In this document: positions 47,202-53,888 of the stretch, one piece after another
Numbering within the stretch: position 1 is the stretch's first letter
Layout of the letters: each line of letters starts with the position of its first letter
Assembly (NCBI RefSeq): GCF_003952505.1
Contig: NZ_CP034450.1
Location: forward strand, 1,364,001-1,428,000
DNA length: 64,000 nucleotides
Origin: Mesorhizobium sp. M4B.F.Ca.ET.058.02.1.1
GTDB taxonomy: Bacteria > Pseudomonadota > Alphaproteobacteria > Rhizobiales > Rhizobiaceae
Direction: 5' to 3'
The notes under the pieces: model-generated
The model's input: the letters and a program-made list of their open reading frames with translations, nothing else
Database searches by the model: none
Told to the model about the DNA's origin: nothing
Translations under genes and position numbers: made by a program

Positions 47202-48242
47202 TTAGCCGCCCACTGTGCGGCCGCATGACTGACGCACCACCAGCCGGCACGGCAGTTTTCGAATGCCCGGCGCGGCCGCCTGGCCGCCGACGAGCGAAAG
47301 CAAAGCGAGCCCGGCCTCGCGGCCGAGCGTCGCCAGGTTCATGTCGACCGAGGTCAGCGGCGGGCGCGTCGCCTCGGCCACGATCTCCCAATTGTCGAAA
47401 CCGACGACGCCGACCTCCTCGGGCACGCGGATGCCGCGCTCGCGCAGCGCATCGATGACGCCGCGCGCGATCTGGTCGTTGCCGCAGAAGACGGCGTCCG
47501 GCGTCTCCGCCCTGCCCTTGCCGTCGAACAGCTTCGCCACCGCCTCATGCCCCCAGCCTTCCGACCAGGCGCCGAGCAACGGCTCGGCGGCCGGCAGGCC
47601 GTGCTCGACAAGGACCTGGCGATAGGCGCGGGCGCGCTCATGCACGACAGCAAAACTCGCCGGCCCGCTGACATGGGCGATGCGCCGGCGTCCGAGCCCG
47701 CAAAAATGCTCGACCGCCAGCCGCGCGCCGCCGGCATCGTCGGAGACGAAGGCGACCGAGCCGGGATCGGGCTGTGTGAAGGCATAGATCACCGGGATGC
47801 GCAAATTGGAGAGGTCGATCGGCAGATGGCGGTCGATGCGTTTTCCCGTGGCGATGATGCCGTCGACGCGCTTGTCGAGCATGGCCTCGACATGCAGCTG
47901 GCCAAGCCGCGGATCGTCCTCGACATTGCACAGGAACACCGAGACACCGGCATCGACCAGCGCATCGGAAACGCCGGCCATCAGCGGCAGCGAGAAGCGG
48001 CCGTAGGTATCGTTGGTGAGCAGCCCGACGGTGAAGGAGCGTTTTCGCAACAGGCTCTGCGCCAGGCTGTTCGGCCGGAACCCCAGCCGCTGCGCCGTCT
48101 CGCGGATACGCTCGCGCGTCTCCGCCGTCATCCGCCCCTGCCCGTTCAGCGCCTTTGAGGCCGTCGCCACGCTGACGCCGGCGGCCGACGCCACCTCACG
48201 CAGGGTGACCGGGGCTGGCGCTGGCAAGGCGTTGGAGGACAT
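47202..48242 (-). CDS. LacI family transcriptional regulator
   Basis: This 346-residue repressor has an N-terminal LacI HTH and hinge (VTLREVASAAGVSVATASKA; LGFRPNSLAQSLLRKR) and a periplasmic-binding-like sugar domain (TFTV.LLTNDTYGRFSLPL-type start; VVGFDNWEIVAEATRPPLTS near the end). It is the first gene of the sugar ABC/GH127 cluster, on the same strand. Two near-identical palindromes lie upstream of its start (48266-48281 and 48334-48349), so autoregulation is likely and may cover the whole cluster. Confidence 0.93.
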   Translation of the reverse strand: MSSNALPAPAPVTLREVASAAGVSVATASKALNGQGRMTAETRERIRETAQRLGFRPNSLAQSLLRKRSFTVGLLTNDTYGRFSLPLMAGVSDALVDAGVSVFLCNVEDDPRLGQLHVEAMLDKRVDGIIATGKRIDRHLPIDLSNLRIPVIYAFTQPDPGSVAFVSDDAGGARLAVEHFCGLGRRRIAHVSGPASFAVVHERARAYRQVLVEHGLPAAEPLLGAWSEGWGHEAVAKLFDGKGRAETPDAVFCGNDQIARGVIDALRERGIRVPEEVGVVGFDNWEIVAEATRPPLTSVDMNLATLGREAGLALLSLVGGQAAAPGIRKLPCRLVVRQSCGRTVGG

Positions 48243-48265
48243 GTGGCGAGGCGCATCCCTTGGTT

Positions 48266-48281
48266 GAGAAAAGGTTTTCTC
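48266..48281. promoter_or_regulatory. LacI-type operator 1
   Basis: GAGAAAAGGTTTTCTC is a palindrome with 7-bp arms, 24 bp upstream of the LacI start. Its form and position fit a LacI-family operator. Confidence 0.7.
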
Positions 48282-48333
48282 TTATCGCCCTGCGCGGTGA
48301 TGACGGGTGAGGGTCAACGAGCGAAGGGGATTT

Positions 48334-48349: not shown

Positions 48350-48497
48350 AGAGGGAGATTAGGGGAAGGTGGGGAGGTTGGCAAGGGGGGAGAGCGTTGC
48401 TCTTTCGACTTGCTATATGACCTCGCCCTTGTTGCCAAAGTCCGTGGCGAGCCATAGTAACAAGGCAACGCTTCCGAACAATCCAATGGTAGTCGAT

Positions 48498-49676
48498 ATG
48501 CACGATACCGCACGACCGTTCCTGGTCATCTACGTGGCATGGCATCCTGACTTTGAGGACGGAGAGCGGCTTGCCCGTGTCTTGTATGATCACTACCGCC
48601 GAAAACTCTATGAGAATGTAGCCGGCGGATCTGGATTGCCCGTGGTATATCGGTTCCTTCCTGCTCCGGACGCCGCAACTCCAATCGACATTGACCTGAT
48701 CGATGCTGAAACTTCAGCCGTTGTCTTGCTAATTGACGACCACTGGGTACATGACCCGGATTGGGTAGCTTGGGCCCAAAAACTAGCCCAACAGGCGGAC
48801 GCCAAGGGTTTGGCCGCCCGCGTCTTCCCGGTTGCGATAGACGGTTCCGCAACGCGGATCGGCCTATTCGAACAGGCCTCGCGATGGGACAAATGGGACG
48901 GTCTTTCGTTCGAAGAGCGTCAGCGGCGCCTCATTATTGACCTAACCCACCAACTCTGCCGCATGTTAAGATCTTATCTAGAGCATCTAAGGCGACCGAA
49001 AGAAACTGGGGACATCCTTGCCAGATATCTGAGGAAAGTGGAGATATTTATCAGTCACTCGAAACACGACGAAGATGGGGAACGAATCGCCAAACTAATT
49101 CGGAGATATGTCTATGAGGGCGACGGCCTGTCGAGCTTCTTTGATGTCCATGACATACCAATCGGCCTACAATTCAACAAGGTTCTATTACAAAAGGTAA
49201 AATTGAGCGCAGTTGTCGCCATCAACACCGACAGTTATTCGTCAAGAGAGTGGTGTCGCCGTGAAATTATAGAAGCAAAGCGATGGAACGTCCCACTGGT
49301 AATTGCCAATTGTATGAGTGACATGGATGAACGAGGGTTTCCCTACCTTGGAAACGTTCCAGTCGTACGCATGGATCCTATCACTTCGGACCGCATCGAC
49401 GTGATCGTCAGCAAATTGCTGGACGAAGTTCTTAAGGACTTCCTTTGGCGGTGCTGGGTCCAGTCGGCCGCCTCGGATCGGGATGATGTCGTCTTTGTTC
49501 CACGCCCTCCCGAACTCATCACTTTGGTCGGTTTGGAAGGCAAGGCTCAAGCAGACGTGACATTAGTCTATCCGGAGCCACCTATCGGCGCAGAGGAGCA
49601 GCGCCTCTTTGAGATTATTGCACCGAAGGTGCAGTTACGCAGCATGACTGAGTGGCTGGCCGGGAGATCCATATGA
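48498..49676 (+). CDS. Tandem TIR-domain protein
   Basis: This protein of about 392 residues carries two TIR-like modules. The first (about 5-120) begins FLVIYVAWHPDFEDGERLAR and has DAETSAVVLLIDDHWVHDP. The second (about 180-300) is canonical: VEIFISHSKHDEDGERIAKL, then SSREWCRREIIEAKR, where E256 sits at the catalytic Glu position of NAD-cleaving TIRs (WCxxE). A conserved-looking tail (about 330-392) follows. It may cleave NAD+ or make a nucleotide signal on sensing infection. Its TGA overlaps the ATG of the SLOG-like gene (ATGA), so the two are a unit. The start is uncertain: ATGs at 48417, 48486 and 48498 all lack a clear ribosome site. Base composition is more AT-rich than surrounding genes, suggesting transfer. 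Confidence 0.85.
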   Translation: MHDTARPFLVIYVAWHPDFEDGERLARVLYDHYRRKLYENVAGGSGLPVVYRFLPAPDAATPIDIDLIDAETSAVVLLIDDHWVHDPDWVAWAQKLAQQADAKGLAARVFPVAIDGSATRIGLFEQASRWDKWDGLSFEERQRRLIIDLTHQLCRMLRSYLEHLRRPKETGDILARYLRKVEIFISHSKHDEDGERIAKLIRRYVYEGDGLSSFFDVHDIPIGLQFNKVLLQKVKLSAVVAINTDSYSSREWCRREIIEAKRWNVPLVIANCMSDMDERGFPYLGNVPVVRMDPITSDRIDVIVSKLLDEVLKDFLWRCWVQSAASDRDDVVFVPRPPELITLVGLEGKAQADVTLVYPEPPIGAEEQRLFEIIAPKVQLRSMTEWLAGRSI

Positions 49677-50494
49677 ACTACAGAGAACCTTTGAGTCAGC
49701 GCGCCGTCGCGATTTCAATCTCGACAAGTCCTGATATGGCGTTGCTTGGACTGGGTCCGGAACATCTCGATGACGCGATGACGGAAGTCGCGAGGCATTT
49801 GCTGGCGATGGGTGCACGTCTTCTCTACGGAGGCGACCTTCGTGAGCATGGTTTTTCACGCCTGTTGTTCGAATTGGTTGCACGACATCGGCGGGACGCA
49901 GACTTGGGAGACGAGCGTGTTGGCGTGAGCAACTATTTGGCTTGGCCCGTTCATGCCCATCTATCCGCTGACAGGCTCATCGAGTTGTCTAACGCACTTA
50001 AAGGAAGCGCTGAAGTTTTGTGTATGGGGCCGGATGGTACAGTTGTGTTACCGGAGGCGCGCGGACCCGCAACTACGGCGCCTGCAACGGATAAAGAATG
50101 GGCTGATGGATTGACAGCAATGCGCATGGCCGTGCGCAGCGCGAGCGACGCTCGCATTGTATTGGGTGGAACCGTCGAGGGTTTCAAGGGAAGGATGCCG
50201 GGGGTGGCCGAAGAAGCACTACTCTCACTTGAGAACGAGCAGCCTCTGTTTCTTCTAGGCGGCTTCGGTGGCTGCACCTTCGATATTGCCGTCGAGCTAG
50301 GCCTAACTCCTAACACAGGCCCTAACCGTAGCTGGCTCGGTAGGGGCCGTTTTTCCGGATTTTCGGTCGATAGCCTTCGGAACGGCCTAACAGCGAATGA
50401 AAACAAAGCGCTAGTCGCAACCGCACACATCGATCAAGCGGTGGCGCTTGTGCTACGTGGCTTCCTCCGTCAAGAGAAGATTGCCGGAAATTAA
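49673..50494 (+). CDS. SLOG/LOG-like nucleotide-binding protein coupled to TIR
   Basis: This 273-residue protein resembles the SLOG (LOG-Smf/DprA) superfamily. An N-terminal Rossmann strand-helix (AVAISISTSPDMALLGLGPE) precedes the Gly motif LLYGGDLREHGF, and a second segment has VLGGTVEGFKGRMPGVAEEA and PLFLLGGFGGCTFDIA. SLOG proteins bind NAD-derived or related nucleotides and act as sensors in conflict systems. The ATG at 49673 overlaps the TIR stop and has GGGAG 6 nt before it. No effector domain such as SIR2 or a membrane segment is fused. By analogy with Thoeris it could receive a TIR-made nucleotide, but its output is unknown. Confidence 0.7.
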   Translation: MNYREPLSQRAVAISISTSPDMALLGLGPEHLDDAMTEVARHLLAMGARLLYGGDLREHGFSRLLFELVARHRRDADLGDERVGVSNYLAWPVHAHLSADRLIELSNALKGSAEVLCMGPDGTVVLPEARGPATTAPATDKEWADGLTAMRMAVRSASDARIVLGGTVEGFKGRMPGVAEEALLSLENEQPLFLLGGFGGCTFDIAVELGLTPNTGPNRSWLGRGRFSGFSVDSLRNGLTANENKALVATAHIDQAVALVLRGFLRQEKIAGN

Positions 50495-50547
50495 CTTCAA
50501 TATGAAAGGGCGATATTCCAAGGTCGCAGCTTTGTGCGGCGGGGCCT

Positions 50548-51159
50548 TCAAGCGGTCCTGACCCAATCCAGAGGTCGAGCCATGTACCCGTGGGCATCTA
50601 GAGACCTTATCCAATCGATGAATTGGTCTCGATGTTCCTCGGAGAAATGATTCCGATGGCCGCGACGAGCGCAAATATCAGCTCCATTGAAATCGCGATA
50701 CAACTGCGGAATTTCTGGCCCTCCTCCGCCCCAATAGGCATAGTCGTGCCCAATGAGGACCTTCTCCGATTTAGTGTCATGGTCTACATTAATTGGGTTT
50801 AGCGCACCATTTCGCTCGCTGTGGAGCGAGCTGGCCTGCAGCCATTCACCGCTATTAGGATTGCGATGATAGATATTATCGCCAAAAGCTTGCATCTTGC
50901 TGCCACGAAGAAAGGGACGCTTCGTCATGAAGCGCGGGTCGTTCCAGTAGTGATCATACGTTGTGATTTCGTCGACGACCATGAAATAGACTAGAAAGCC
51001 TCGCCGTCTACGTTTGGCGCAACCTGTCCCGACAACGTAATCGCCAATCTCCGCGTGCTCGCGAATGCTGGGTTTGCAAGTTGCAAGAGTACATACTCCG
51101 TGGAATGGGTTCGGAGCGAACCCATAGTCGTGATCCAGGACGTAAGAATGTAGCCGCAC
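50548..51159 (-). CDS. Nmad2-type putative nucleotide modification-associated protein
   Basis: This protein of about 203 residues matches my memory of the Nmad2 domain: HSYVLDHDYGFAPNPFHGVC, TLATCKPSIREHAEIGDYVV, FLRGSKMQAFGDNIYHRNP, VLIGHDYAYWGGGGPEIP and the C-terminal DICARRGHRNHF. The family is predicted to be linked to modified nucleotides but has no known chemistry. A GTG at 51159, one base after the TIR gene's TAG, is the likely start; an ORF start at 51300 would overlap the TIR gene in another frame. It is the last gene of the MazG/UDG/TIR operon and converges with the SLOG-like gene, 53 bp apart. Confidence 0.7.
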   Translation of the reverse strand: MRLHSYVLDHDYGFAPNPFHGVCTLATCKPSIREHAEIGDYVVGTGCAKRRRRGFLVYFMVVDEITTYDHYWNDPRFMTKRPFLRGSKMQAFGDNIYHRNPNSGEWLQASSLHSERNGALNPINVDHDTKSEKVLIGHDYAYWGGGGPEIPQLYRDFNGADICARRGHRNHFSEEHRDQFIDWIRSLDAHGYMARPLDWVRTA

Positions 51160-51160
51160 T

Positions 51161-51640
51161 CTAGCTCGCGCACCTGTATCGAGCGATTGGTCGCTCCGCC
51201 CGAGGCTCGCCTTTGGGGTCGCGCCATTCTTCGATCTTCCCGAAGATAGCGTCGATAATCTGCTCGGCACGCCAAGGGACGACTGCATTTGCATACTCAT
51301 CGAGCGCCTCTGGCGGCTCGCATCCGTGCTCCCCGTGGTCCCACACTCCTACGATACGTTTGCCAAGTTTATGGGCATACTCGATTTCCCAATTAACCCA
51401 ATCGCTATGTTTCGTATCTGGCGTAATAAGGACGACGACCGTACCCGCCCATTCTATGCGAGGGCTAAGTATGTCGCGTTTGATGTAGTCGGGGTCTTTC
51501 GCGTTGTTGGGTCTATCGCTGTTGATTGAACTGTCACGAGCGGAGCAGCCATTTTTGGCGAGAAGATCTTTCAGCGCCTGTAGCCGTGCGTCATCCTCGT
51601 GGACATGGCTAATAAAGACGTTGCAAACTTTGTCGCTCAC
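51161..51640 (-). CDS. ThsB-type TIR-like domain protein (DUF1863 family)
   Basis: This 159-residue protein is a single TIR-like domain: NVFISHVHEDDARLQALKDL at the start, YIKRDILSPRIEWAGTVVVL, then SDWVNWEIEYAHKLGKRIVG, with E85 (WVNWE) at the catalytic Glu position, and GVWDHGEHGCEPPEALDEYA. This form (the MTH538-like/ThsB branch) makes signalling nucleotides in Thoeris. A GTG start at 51640 with GGAG 7 nt before it is preferred to the ATG at 51715, which has no good ribosome site. The stop is 1 nt before the Nmad2 start. Confidence 0.8.
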   Translation of the reverse strand: MSDKVCNVFISHVHEDDARLQALKDLLAKNGCSARDSSINSDRPNNAKDPDYIKRDILSPRIEWAGTVVVLITPDTKHSDWVNWEIEYAHKLGKRIVGVWDHGEHGCEPPEALDEYANAVVPWRAEQIIDAIFGKIEEWRDPKGEPRAERPIARYRCAS

Positions 51641-51727
51641 GGTACTGCTCCGGCGGTCTAGTTCCCATGAAGTACTTATAGAGTATCCCCGACCGTCAAG
51701 GCTAGAGCCATCCAACGTTATACCCAG

Positions 51728-52396
51728 TTACAAAAGCCTCAAGGTTTGCCCCTCGACACGAGGCGATACGCAATAATGCGAATACACACCCGCCCTGAAC
51801 TCATTGTGACCACCGTAGCTAGGATGCCGCACCTGCTCGGCCGCGACATCCAAATCAGCCAAAGCGGCCTGTGCGTCACGACCGATCGCAACCACTGATC
51901 GTGGTCGCAATCTCTCTATTAGCCACTGCAGCAGATGGCTGCAGGCATATCGTTCGTCGCGAGTATGGCAGCGATTCGAAAGTGGAGAATCTTCCTCGAA
52001 AGGATGGAGAGGAAAGACGTTCCAAAGGAATATCGGCCGACGAAGTTCACGGAGGACTTCCCAGATGACCGTTGCCGTTCGCTCCGCCACCGCAGGCCCA
52101 CGAGTAGCACGCTTCAGTGGTGCCGTGCCAAGGAGCGCAGCGTGTGCCCCAAGATGGACCTCGTCGGTCAATGCGAGCCCCGTCCGCCGACCACCACGAT
52201 AGCCGAGGTCACGTGCGATCCATATTGACTCCACTCCGCGGTCAAGGGCTGCATCCAGAACCATCTTAAGGTTGTGCCGGCGGACCGCAGGCGCCTCAAC
52301 AAGGTCGTACGCTTGGCAGGTCTCAGCGTACGGATTAAATGCATTGTTGAAACGCAAACCCCGGAGGGCCTCTATAAAACCCGAGGTGTCAATCAT
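51728..52396 (-). CDS. Uracil-DNA glycosylase superfamily protein, altered first motif
   Basis: This 222-residue protein has a UDG fold. The C-terminal motif RHPSYGGHNEF (191-200) and the middle element FLWNVFPLHPFEED (124-136), with NRCHTRDERYAC following, match the family. The first motif, normally GEAPG followed by YRG..TG, reads ARDLGYRGGRRTG (61-73), so the acidic/water-activating part is changed. It may excise an unusual base or only bind it. Its ATG overlaps the stop of the MazG-like gene by 4 bp (ATGA), so the two proteins are translated together. Confidence 0.72.
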   Translation of the reverse strand: MIDTSGFIEALRGLRFNNAFNPYAETCQAYDLVEAPAVRRHNLKMVLDAALDRGVESIWIARDLGYRGGRRTGLALTDEVHLGAHAALLGTAPLKRATRGPAVAERTATVIWEVLRELRRPIFLWNVFPLHPFEEDSPLSNRCHTRDERYACSHLLQWLIERLRPRSVVAIGRDAQAALADLDVAAEQVRHPSYGGHNEFRAGVYSHYCVSPRVEGQTLRLL

Positions 52397-53565
52397 GGTA
52401 GTGTCTCTGCCGACAGGCTGCGGTTGGGGCGATCAAGAATAAGTCGGCCGCGCCTATGCGTTCTAAGGAACCGAAAAGCTTCATTGCCCTTGAGAATCGC
52501 CTCCTCCCATAGCCACAGCGGACAGTCCTCCGACTCGTATCCTCGTACAAATTGCCGCACAGATTTTAGAAATGTAAACCCCAAATCTCCTGCACTTTGG
52601 CCCTCAAAGAAGTCCAGCTGTTTCGCCTCCCCAAAGACATATGTCGCGACCCCTTCTTCAATCAGGATGGCTCTGGCGCCATCCTGGCCTTCATCAACCT
52701 TTGTTTCGCTTTTTCGCTTCAGACGAAAAAGGGCGCGTGTAACGGGAGACCATCCCAGTATCGCCGCATAGGCATAGTGGAAGGCATCGTGAAACCGATA
52801 ATCATCTGGCTTCATAATATTGTCCGTTAGGCTGTCTCCTATGAAAATCCCGTTGCACTTCTGCACTACATAAGTCTTTCCGTTCTTGGCGACTCTTTCA
52901 AAGATTTCTATCTCTAGATTCTTTGGAAGTTGCTCCTCTTCGGGATATTCTTTGTCAAAGTCAGTTCCAAAATTTCGGTCCTCAGGCCATCTGTCAGCAG
53001 CCTTCTTCAAATTGTGATCGGCGGCTTGATCCAGAGTGATGCCTGCTTCGTTGGCAGCCGAGAGCAGGAACCGGAAGATTGCCGCAAGATGGTCAAGAAG
53101 GCCCGCTCGATCTAATGGCAAACCACCTTCTGCGCTTAGCGCAGCTAGGCGCCCGACAGCCCCAGCAAGCTGCAAAAGGGTACGCTCAAACGCGGCGGTG
53201 GGAGCGTTCAACGGCAAGGTAGGCTGAGGCTGCAAACTAAGGAGTTCGACATCGTTTCCATCGAACATGCGCTCCTTCGCATCGCCTTGGGCTGTCGTCG
53301 CTACTGCCGAGAGTGGCAATTCAGCATGATCGGCGATCACAGCGAGATACCAGAGGGCATCTCCCATTTCCTCGATTACGCTGGCCTCGTAGCCAAGGTA
53401 AGATCGGGAGTCGCGCTGCTTCTTCTTAACTTCACTTAGAAGGCTCCCAATCTCGCCGACCAAGCCGAGCACTGGGAGATCGAATCCATTACCCAATTGG
53501 TTGGTTCGATCCGTGCGTATTGCGCGCAATTGATAATTGTCGAGGGTAATTGACCGCTGATTCAT
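52393..53565 (-). CDS. MazG-like nucleotide pyrophosphohydrolase with C-terminal domain
   Basis: This protein of about 390 residues has an N-terminal all-alpha MazG-like domain (GLVGEIGSLLSEVKKKQRD, then EEMGDALWYLAVIADHAELP; E38, E45, E65/66 and D69 are candidate metal ligands). A C-terminal domain carries CNGIFIGDSLTDN, DDYRFHDAFHYAYAAILGWS and RLKRKSETKVDEGQDGARA. MazG enzymes hydrolyse NTPs or modified/alarmone nucleotides. The ATG at 53565 has GGAAA upstream; an in-frame GTG at 53589 is possible. It is the first clear gene of the four-gene minus-strand operon. Confidence 0.8.
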   Translation of the reverse strand: MNQRSITLDNYQLRAIRTDRTNQLGNGFDLPVLGLVGEIGSLLSEVKKKQRDSRSYLGYEASVIEEMGDALWYLAVIADHAELPLSAVATTAQGDAKERMFDGNDVELLSLQPQPTLPLNAPTAAFERTLLQLAGAVGRLAALSAEGGLPLDRAGLLDHLAAIFRFLLSAANEAGITLDQAADHNLKKAADRWPEDRNFGTDFDKEYPEEEQLPKNLEIEIFERVAKNGKTYVVQKCNGIFIGDSLTDNIMKPDDYRFHDAFHYAYAAILGWSPVTRALFRLKRKSETKVDEGQDGARAILIEEGVATYVFGEAKQLDFFEGQSAGDLGFTFLKSVRQFVRGYESEDCPLWLWEEAILKGNEAFRFLRTHRRGRLILDRPNRSLSAETLP

Positions 53566-53615
53566 CCGCTTTTCCGCCACCTGATTCACTGAGGATCATT
53601 ATCATCTTGTTTGAG

Positions 53616-53888
53616 TTAACGGTCGAGCGGGAAGACAGCGCAAACGATAGCATTTTCGCATTGCTTCAAACCACTGAACTTGGAGAACGCCCCTGACCAG
53701 TCATCACTGCCGTGACTTCCGACGTCATAGAAACCTTTAAGGCAGGTGAACTTCGATCTTGATACGGTCGAGAATTGGCACCCAACATCAGTTTGGTGAA
53801 GCTTGTGATGCGCCTTCGCGCAGGTGTTCTGGCATGCGAGCACGGCTTCTGACGAGTGAGGTGACCGATGAGCAACACAGGTCGCCAT
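53616..53888 (-). CDS. Possible small Cys-rich protein upstream of MazG-like gene
   Basis: This open frame of about 90 residues contains five Cys and many Ser/His (for example VLACQNTCAKAHHKLHQ). It is in the same orientation as the MazG-like gene and ends close upstream of it. There is no recognised domain and no good ribosome site, so it may equally be non-coding leader DNA of the operon. Confidence 0.2.
   Translation of the reverse strand: MATCVAHRSPHSSEAVLACQNTCAKAHHKLHQTDVGCQFSTVSRSKFTCLKGFYDVGSHGSDDWSGAFSKFSGLKQCENAIVCAVFPLDR

Follow-up and report, generated by a model that had tools for sequence, protein, structure and literature searches.

A cassette of six genes, which we tentatively read as a Thoeris-like anti-phage alarm of TIR and SLOG proteins with a trigger arm for modified thymine or uracil, lies in a 64,000-nucleotide stretch of Mesorhizobium sp. 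M4B.F.Ca.ET.058.02.1.1 (contig NZ_CP034450.1, positions 1,364,001 to 1,428,000; the window, whose numbering is used below unless a locus is named). A preliminary description of this DNA, made from the sequence alone, had singled out four packed genes, encoding MazG-like, uracil-DNA glycosylase (UDG)-like, ThsB-type TIR and Nmad2 proteins, as a candidate undescribed defence operon. The unit present here is larger, as it also includes a convergent pair of genes for a TIR_2 protein and a SLOG protein. Our model, which is an interpretation of computational comparisons, is built on the identity of the parts, their recurrent association in other genomes, their joint insertion, the retained glutamate of both TIR domains and the alternation of UDG with a relative of phage thymine-modifying enzymes.

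A joint insert of recurrently associated genes

The six genes fill a single insert exactly, and this cassette looks foreign to the genome. The guanine-plus-cytosine (GC) content is 53.7% within the insert, and its 8-kb flanks have 66.0% and 64.9%; for the DNA of the six genes it is 52-56%, with 65-66% in the surroundings. We compared the site with ten sister-genome stretches, each starting at the neighbouring LacI-type gene. On the left, homology ended at 48388-48392 in five of the ten and at 48212-48290 in the other five, and on the right it returned at 53883-53884 in two of them. Two sister genomes carry other, defence-type cargo at the same site: an HNH_2 protein and a 612-residue protein without a Pfam match in one (L163 3021-6308), and a 1100-residue N6 methylase with a small protein in the other (L167 2529-7212). 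The site beside the LacI-type regulator (window 48390-53883) is therefore variable in the genus, and the low-GC insert, the homology edges and the alternative cargo together indicate that the six genes arrived jointly. No match to Nmad2 was found in the other genomes of the genus that were listed, four in one sample and eight, those four included, in a second.

Recurrence was assessed around Nmad2. An alignment-based scan of one genome per species gave 352 confirmed Nmad2 stretches. The analysis used the best 80 of these, in which near-identical betaproteobacterial loci were counted separately. A TIR gene was counted when it lay on the strand of Nmad2 and no more than 300 bases away, and MazG, UDG, TIR_2 and SLOG genes when within 6 kb; a full-flank subset was made up of the 46 loci that had 6 kb or more of sequence to either side. 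Neighbours were called with locally built profiles, those for HMUDK (see below), TS, DCD and TIR being derived from these same loci, with representatives confirmed in Pfam.

Among the best 80 of the 352 loci, TIR was adjacent to Nmad2 in 75, with MazG present in 60, UDG in 41 and TIR_2 and/or SLOG in 33. The corresponding numbers for the full-flank subset were 45, 35, 24 and 21 of 46. As for the five loci called without TIR, three start less than 55 bases from a contig end and in L065 another copy of Nmad2 comes with TIR, so that only L073 is a real miss. TIR, MazG and UDG were found together near Nmad2 in 39 of the 80 loci, and the co-occurrence on which the preliminary description staked its proposal is thus borne out. 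The loci span Alpha-, Beta- and Gammaproteobacteria, Chloroflexi, Planctomycetes, Poribacteria, Binatota, Latescibacteria, Bacteroidota, Streptomyces and others, and the gene orders and orientations differ widely among them, as is expected where selection holds the parts together. The families themselves are rare: in a 398-genome sample of the phylum, Nmad2 occurred in 6 genomes, MazG_C in 4 and LD_cluster2 in 7, and among 297 genomes of the family, Nmad2 occurred in 8 and the UDG-like protein (E <= 1e-20) in 12. Rare yet repeatedly adjacent, they co-occur beyond chance.

On the effector side, a candidate SLOG receptor (LD_cluster2, LD_cluster3 or ThsA-like) was present in 27 of the 46 full-flank loci and in 40 of all 80. 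In five loci (L013, L016, L042, L085 and L113) TIR_2 and LD_cluster2 are fused on one open reading frame (ORF), which was confirmed in Pfam for L085. An island of the Cupriavidus basilensis plasmid pRK1-2 (L160 1061-11634) carries three kinds of SLOG and several TIRs around a TIR-Nmad2-MazG-UDG operon: a patatin that includes an LD_cluster2 stretch (35.1 bits) and a TIR_2 with an LD_cluster3 SLOG come before the operon, and a ThsA/ThsB pair follows it (603 bits for ThsA, a SIR2-STALD protein, and 276 bits for ThsB). The ThsA match came from one of three plasmid proteins added to a survey of neighbours, in which 120 of 220 unassigned ORFs were listed and 77 examined, spurious-looking ones having been dropped. 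Such exchangeable effectors and SLOG receptors would fit the logic of Thoeris, with a TIR-made signal, a SLOG receptor and an effector.

Alternation of UDG with a relative of phage thymine-modifying enzymes

Where UDG is absent, its place is often taken by a protein of family PF18723 (HMUDK_hel, the helical domain of 5-hydroxymethyldeoxyuridine (5-hmdU) DNA kinase; 358.8 bits for one representative). Counting HMUDK, TS, DCD and the remaining families within 7 kb of Nmad2, we found UDG in 41, HMUDK in 23 and neither in 16 of the 80 loci, and UDG in 24, HMUDK in 14 and neither in 8 of the 46 full-flank loci. The two never occurred together anywhere in the stretches examined, for which a Fisher test, kinship ignored, gave 5.5e-10 (80 loci) and 1.3e-6 (46 loci). 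Further loci on plasmids and viral contigs followed the same pattern, one or the other being present in nine of nine and both in none of the nine. On a quick Nmad2 tree the UDG/HMUDK label required 12 changes, of which at least three were forced by starred branches. The label is clustered on the tree and yet has switched repeatedly. TS-like, DCD-like and a 293-residue family accompanied HMUDK in 9, 8 and 7 of its 23 loci and UDG in 0 of its 41; in the 16 loci with neither, the counts were 0, 1 and 0.

In the simplest interpretation, UDG and HMUDK would be interchangeable in their task and act on 5-substituted uracil. The idea that modified bases are coupled to TIR signalling, already put forward in the preliminary description, is strengthened by this alternation. 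HMUDK relatives were present in 481 of 50,697 phage records, foremost in Salmonella and Pseudomonas phages, and the listed phage copies were 28-36% identical. The available text of one study reports 5-hmdU-derived thymine in Pseudomonas phage M6 and Salmonella phage ViI (PMC6449724). With regard to the phage enzymes of thymine hypermodification (the 5-hmdU DNA kinase / aGPT-PPlase family), the likeness is that HMUDK_hel replaces UDG in sister loci; the difference is that it here adjoins TIR and Nmad2 in bacterial loci.

We also considered a phage origin of the operon and rejected it, since the same 50,697 phage records contained no match to Nmad2 and none to UDG. MazG had matches in 10 Gordonia phages, confined to its MazG part. 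MazG_C of the window matched phage family phrog_229 at 250 bits and the TIR matched phrog_6988 at 51.6 bits. All four viral contigs with an Nmad2 relative had it near UDG or HMUDK, and an adjacent TIR was called in three, one of these calls scoring just 21 bits.

The six proteins and their relation to known systems

The four domains named in the preliminary description all scored above their Pfam curated cut-offs, and the packing on the minus strand was also found as described, with a 4-base overlap of the MazG and UDG genes and Nmad2 beginning 1 base past the TIR stop (Table 1). The TIR gene begins 87 bases past the UDG stop. The limits of 50548..53565 originally given to the operon include the right genes; the MazG gene, however, reaches 53589 if its GTG start is used (the in-frame ATG at 53565 being an alternative), and the TIR_2-SLOG pair of the same insert was missed. 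This pair, whose genes overlap by 25 bases, converges on the four-gene operon.

Table 1. Window coordinates of the insert and its six genes, with the best domain evidence for each
Feature	Position	Strand	Evidence
Low-GC insert holding all six genes	48393..53882	.	GC contrast and homology breaks versus sister genomes
TIR_2 protein, putative effector	48369..49676	+	PF13676 40.6 bits, residues 200-279 of a 409-residue stretch; start uncertain
SLOG LD_cluster2 protein, putative signal receptor	49652..50494	+	PF18163 229.2 bits
Nmad2 protein, 203 residues	50548..51159	-	PF18753 212.1 bits; GTG start
ThsB-type TIR, 159 residues, putative signal maker	51161..51640	-	PF08937 (ThsB_TIR) 83.5 bits; GTG start
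UDG-superfamily protein, 222 residues	51728..52396	-	PF03167 35.2 bits (cut-off 24.3)
MazG + MazG_C protein, 398 residues	52393..53589	-	PF03819 26.3 bits (cut-off 22), PF18722 252.1 bits; GTG start

Both TIR domains retain their glutamate. Glu85 of the ThsB-type TIR was conserved in 98% of 82 alignment rows, and Glu273 of TIR_2 (numbered on the 409-residue stretch) in 100% of the filled rows among 27. The scanned TIR_2 stretch began in frame at 48447 and not at a start codon; the first GTG of the ORF falls before the edge of the insert. All 121 close relatives of the MazG-like protein kept Glu46, Glu53, Glu73, Glu74 and Asp77.

A protein of a Mesorhizobium sp. shares 97% identity with the UDG protein of the window. 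In an alignment of 32 rows Asn126 of UDG was invariant and Asp63 and His191 nearly so, the position of Asp63 being presumably that of the catalytic Asp of family 1. The segment at residues 60-73, IARDLGYRGGRRTG, is similar to VGLAPGLRGANRTG in another UDG of the same genome, which has four other UDG-superfamily matches; hhalign pairs the two stretches, with a probability of only 1%. The protein did not reach the NCBIfam models of the named UDG families (4, UdgX), scoring 22.5, 17.2 and 12.7 bits where the cut-offs are 250, 125.3 and 189.95. Among solved structures it matched a Thermotoga UDG at E 0.001 as a single sequence and at only 0.06 as a profile.

Nmad2 had no meaningful match among solved structures. 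Its sequence pattern had suggested an EVE-type base reader, a candidate that we rejected: hhalign against 24 EVE proteins gave a probability of 0.1%, which is weak evidence as both alignments were shallow. The Nmad2-paired TIRs have a conserved Cys tail, the motif R[YHF]xC being near the end in 56 of 69 distinct C-termini; 12 more end in Cys or within two residues of it, and one enters masked bases. A second ThsB-type TIR in L084 does not have this tail. A plasmid of Mesorhizobium sp. 131-2-1 (L159 3621-6621) carries two divergent TIR-Nmad2 pairs side by side. A distant Nmad2 clade has other neighbours, with Nmad3 in place of TIR in two cases (L104 7729-9242 and L105 6343-7778). A helical-looking family of ~175 residues without a Pfam match (L050 6962-7489 and relatives) was found near Nmad2 in 18 of the 80 loci, of the UDG and HMUDK types alike.

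No whole catalogued system was recognised among the window proteins. PADLOC identified only the ThsB/TIR component, its ThsB model spanning the whole TIR at 213.7 bits, and NCBIfam gave nothing above cut-off. Type III Thoeris was rejected as an assignment, as the ThcB4 model scored 30.9 bits versus the 220 needed; the phrase was not found in the open-licence papers searched. According to the available text of PMC11204291, ThsB of Thoeris makes signalling nucleotides that activate the SIR2-SLOG protein ThsA. The cassette resembles Thoeris in having a ThsB-type TIR, and in that its SLOG protein is partnered by an NAD-type effector. It differs in that its SLOG is of the LD_cluster2 and not the STALD type, in that the partner of the SLOG is TIR_2 and not SIR2, and in the addition of Nmad2, MazG and UDG. 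ThsA (SIR2 with STALD-type SLOG) was not found among the six cassette proteins. In the whole genome PF18185 had no match, but the control genomes were equally silent, so that this says nothing on genome-wide absence.

In calling the operon undescribed, the preliminary description was right that no whole system is recognised and went too far otherwise, since DefensePredictor already names MazG, MazG-C, UDG and NMAD as predicted defence domains. In the available text of that study (PMC13092281), MazG, MazG-C, NMAD, aGPT-PPlase, dUTPase and UDG (the last in a legend) are named for predicted, unvalidated systems, the legend of the validated E. coli systems lists TS, dNMPk, 5hmdUk and NMAD, and the main text, so far as available, does not mention TIR, SLOG or Thoeris. 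The cassette shares with these nucleotide-modification systems the vocabulary of MazG, MazG-C, UDG and NMAD domains. A joint search of the open-licence literature for MazG, Thoeris and uracil-DNA glycosylase found nothing, and one for Nmad2 returned only papers unrelated by title. Burroughs et al. (2015), whom DefensePredictor cites, reportedly joined SLOG and TIR with nucleotide enzymes into a single network of nucleotide-centric conflict systems. Thus the idea of defence and the domain vocabulary are already in print, while the six-gene architecture and the UDG/HMUDK alternation were not found in the open-licence papers searched.

Proposed function and competing explanations

In the model that we put forward, the MazG/MazG_C protein together with UDG (replaced in other loci by HMUDK, alone or accompanied by TS-like and dCTP-deaminase-like proteins) would act on 5-substituted uracil nucleotides or bases, for example those of phages with 5-hmdU-derived thymine, and would thereby expose or make a danger cue. 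The TIR-Nmad2 pair would sense this cue, and the ThsB-type TIR would respond by making an NAD+-derived signal. The SLOG protein would bind the signal and switch on its partner TIR_2, which would then deplete NAD+ and halt the infected cell. The parts of this model are not equally secure. That the cassette serves against phages is very likely, and signalling from TIR to SLOG is probable, while a trigger of modified thymine is a tentative proposal.

Several findings weigh against such a single pathway. A SLOG receptor candidate was not found in 19 of the 46 full-flank loci, and 11 of the 46 have TIR-Nmad2 without MazG. The 80 loci are the best of 352, and in the whole-genome samples TIR stood beside Nmad2 in only 7 of 13 Nmad2-bearing genomes, one of these matches being weak (47 bits); of the others, four belong to the distant clade, one has a 28-bit fragment and one has an upstream unassigned ORF ending in a similar Cys tail. 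G238 and G605 have MazG-UDG but no Nmad2, and in the phylum sample MazG_C is present without Nmad2 in three genomes, where MazG stands beside either UDG (G605) or HMUDK_hel (G379 and G576), so that the modules may be independent. On the Nmad2 tree, shuffled UDG/HMUDK labels needed a mean of 19 changes, none of 500 shuffles being as low as 12, and 34 of the 74 branches are poorly supported; because of this clustering and these weak branches, the Fisher values overstate the alternation. Finally, the metal motif of MazG consists of ExxE and ExxD, and Ser49 occupies the second Glu position of ExxE here, as it does in 96% of the 121 rows.

The separate occurrence of the modules lends some weight to an explanation which we consider possible, if rather unlikely: TIR-Nmad2, MazG-UDG/HMUDK and TIR_2-SLOG would be three defence modules independent of one another, found side by side because genes for defence tend to cluster and to be transferred jointly. 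Each of them is seen alone, the TIR_2-SLOG pair without Nmad2 in G326, G350 and G393, and other defence genes do occur among the neighbours of the surveyed loci. Mere clustering, however, sits poorly with families that are found in 1-2% of 398 genomes and nevertheless place TIR beside Nmad2 in 45 and MazG near it in 35 of 46 loci, and with the six genes forming one exact insert here. The proposal of the preliminary description that the four genes constitute a unit accordingly stands as a recurrent association and falls short in its boundaries, as there are six genes in this genome and the modules also part company elsewhere.

The nucleotide-handling arm can also be given other roles. It might make or trim a modified host nucleotide that restrains the TIR, which would be released when phage enzymes disturb this nucleotide. 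Panoptes employs decoy cyclic nucleotides, according to the available text of PMC12657218, and a guarded decoy of this kind would follow the same logic with a base-modified nucleotide in place of the cyclic one. The TS-like and DCD-like proteins of HMUDK loci do resemble a biosynthetic route more than a detector, but neither is present in any of the 41 UDG loci. We know of no nucleotide product, and regard the decoy as distinctly improbable. Even less credible is that the arm consists of accessory genes of nucleotide house-cleaning or DNA repair, without a defence role, beside unrelated TIR genes. Classic house-cleaning enzymes do include MazG, UDG and DCD-like types; against this stand the sporadic spread of Nmad2 and UDG-like genes in the family, the foreign-looking insert at a variable site, the presence of two TIRs and a SLOG in the cassette, and the four further UDG-superfamily matches that the same genome already holds.

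The TIR-SLOG alarm with a modified-base trigger, which we still favour with reserve, bears on a general question, since the triggers of bacterial TIR signalling are known for few systems. With modified thymine or uracil, the cassette offers a class of trigger that is concrete and can be tested. In its favour stands the repeated one-for-one swap between a glycosylase fold and a relative of a phage enzyme acting on 5-hmdU in DNA. It is conceivable, although we would not expect it, that host immunity here senses phage thymine hypermodification itself. An exchangeable base-handling module, either of the UDG fold or related to the phage 5-hmdU kinase, would then inform TIR-Nmad2 of 5-substituted uracil, and the signal would pass by way of SLOG to a second TIR. 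If true, phages that hypermodify thymine to evade restriction would trigger abortive infection, and base hypermodification, the classic means by which phages escape it, would itself be a danger signal. Nmad2 and MazG_C, at present domains of unknown function, would then gain one.

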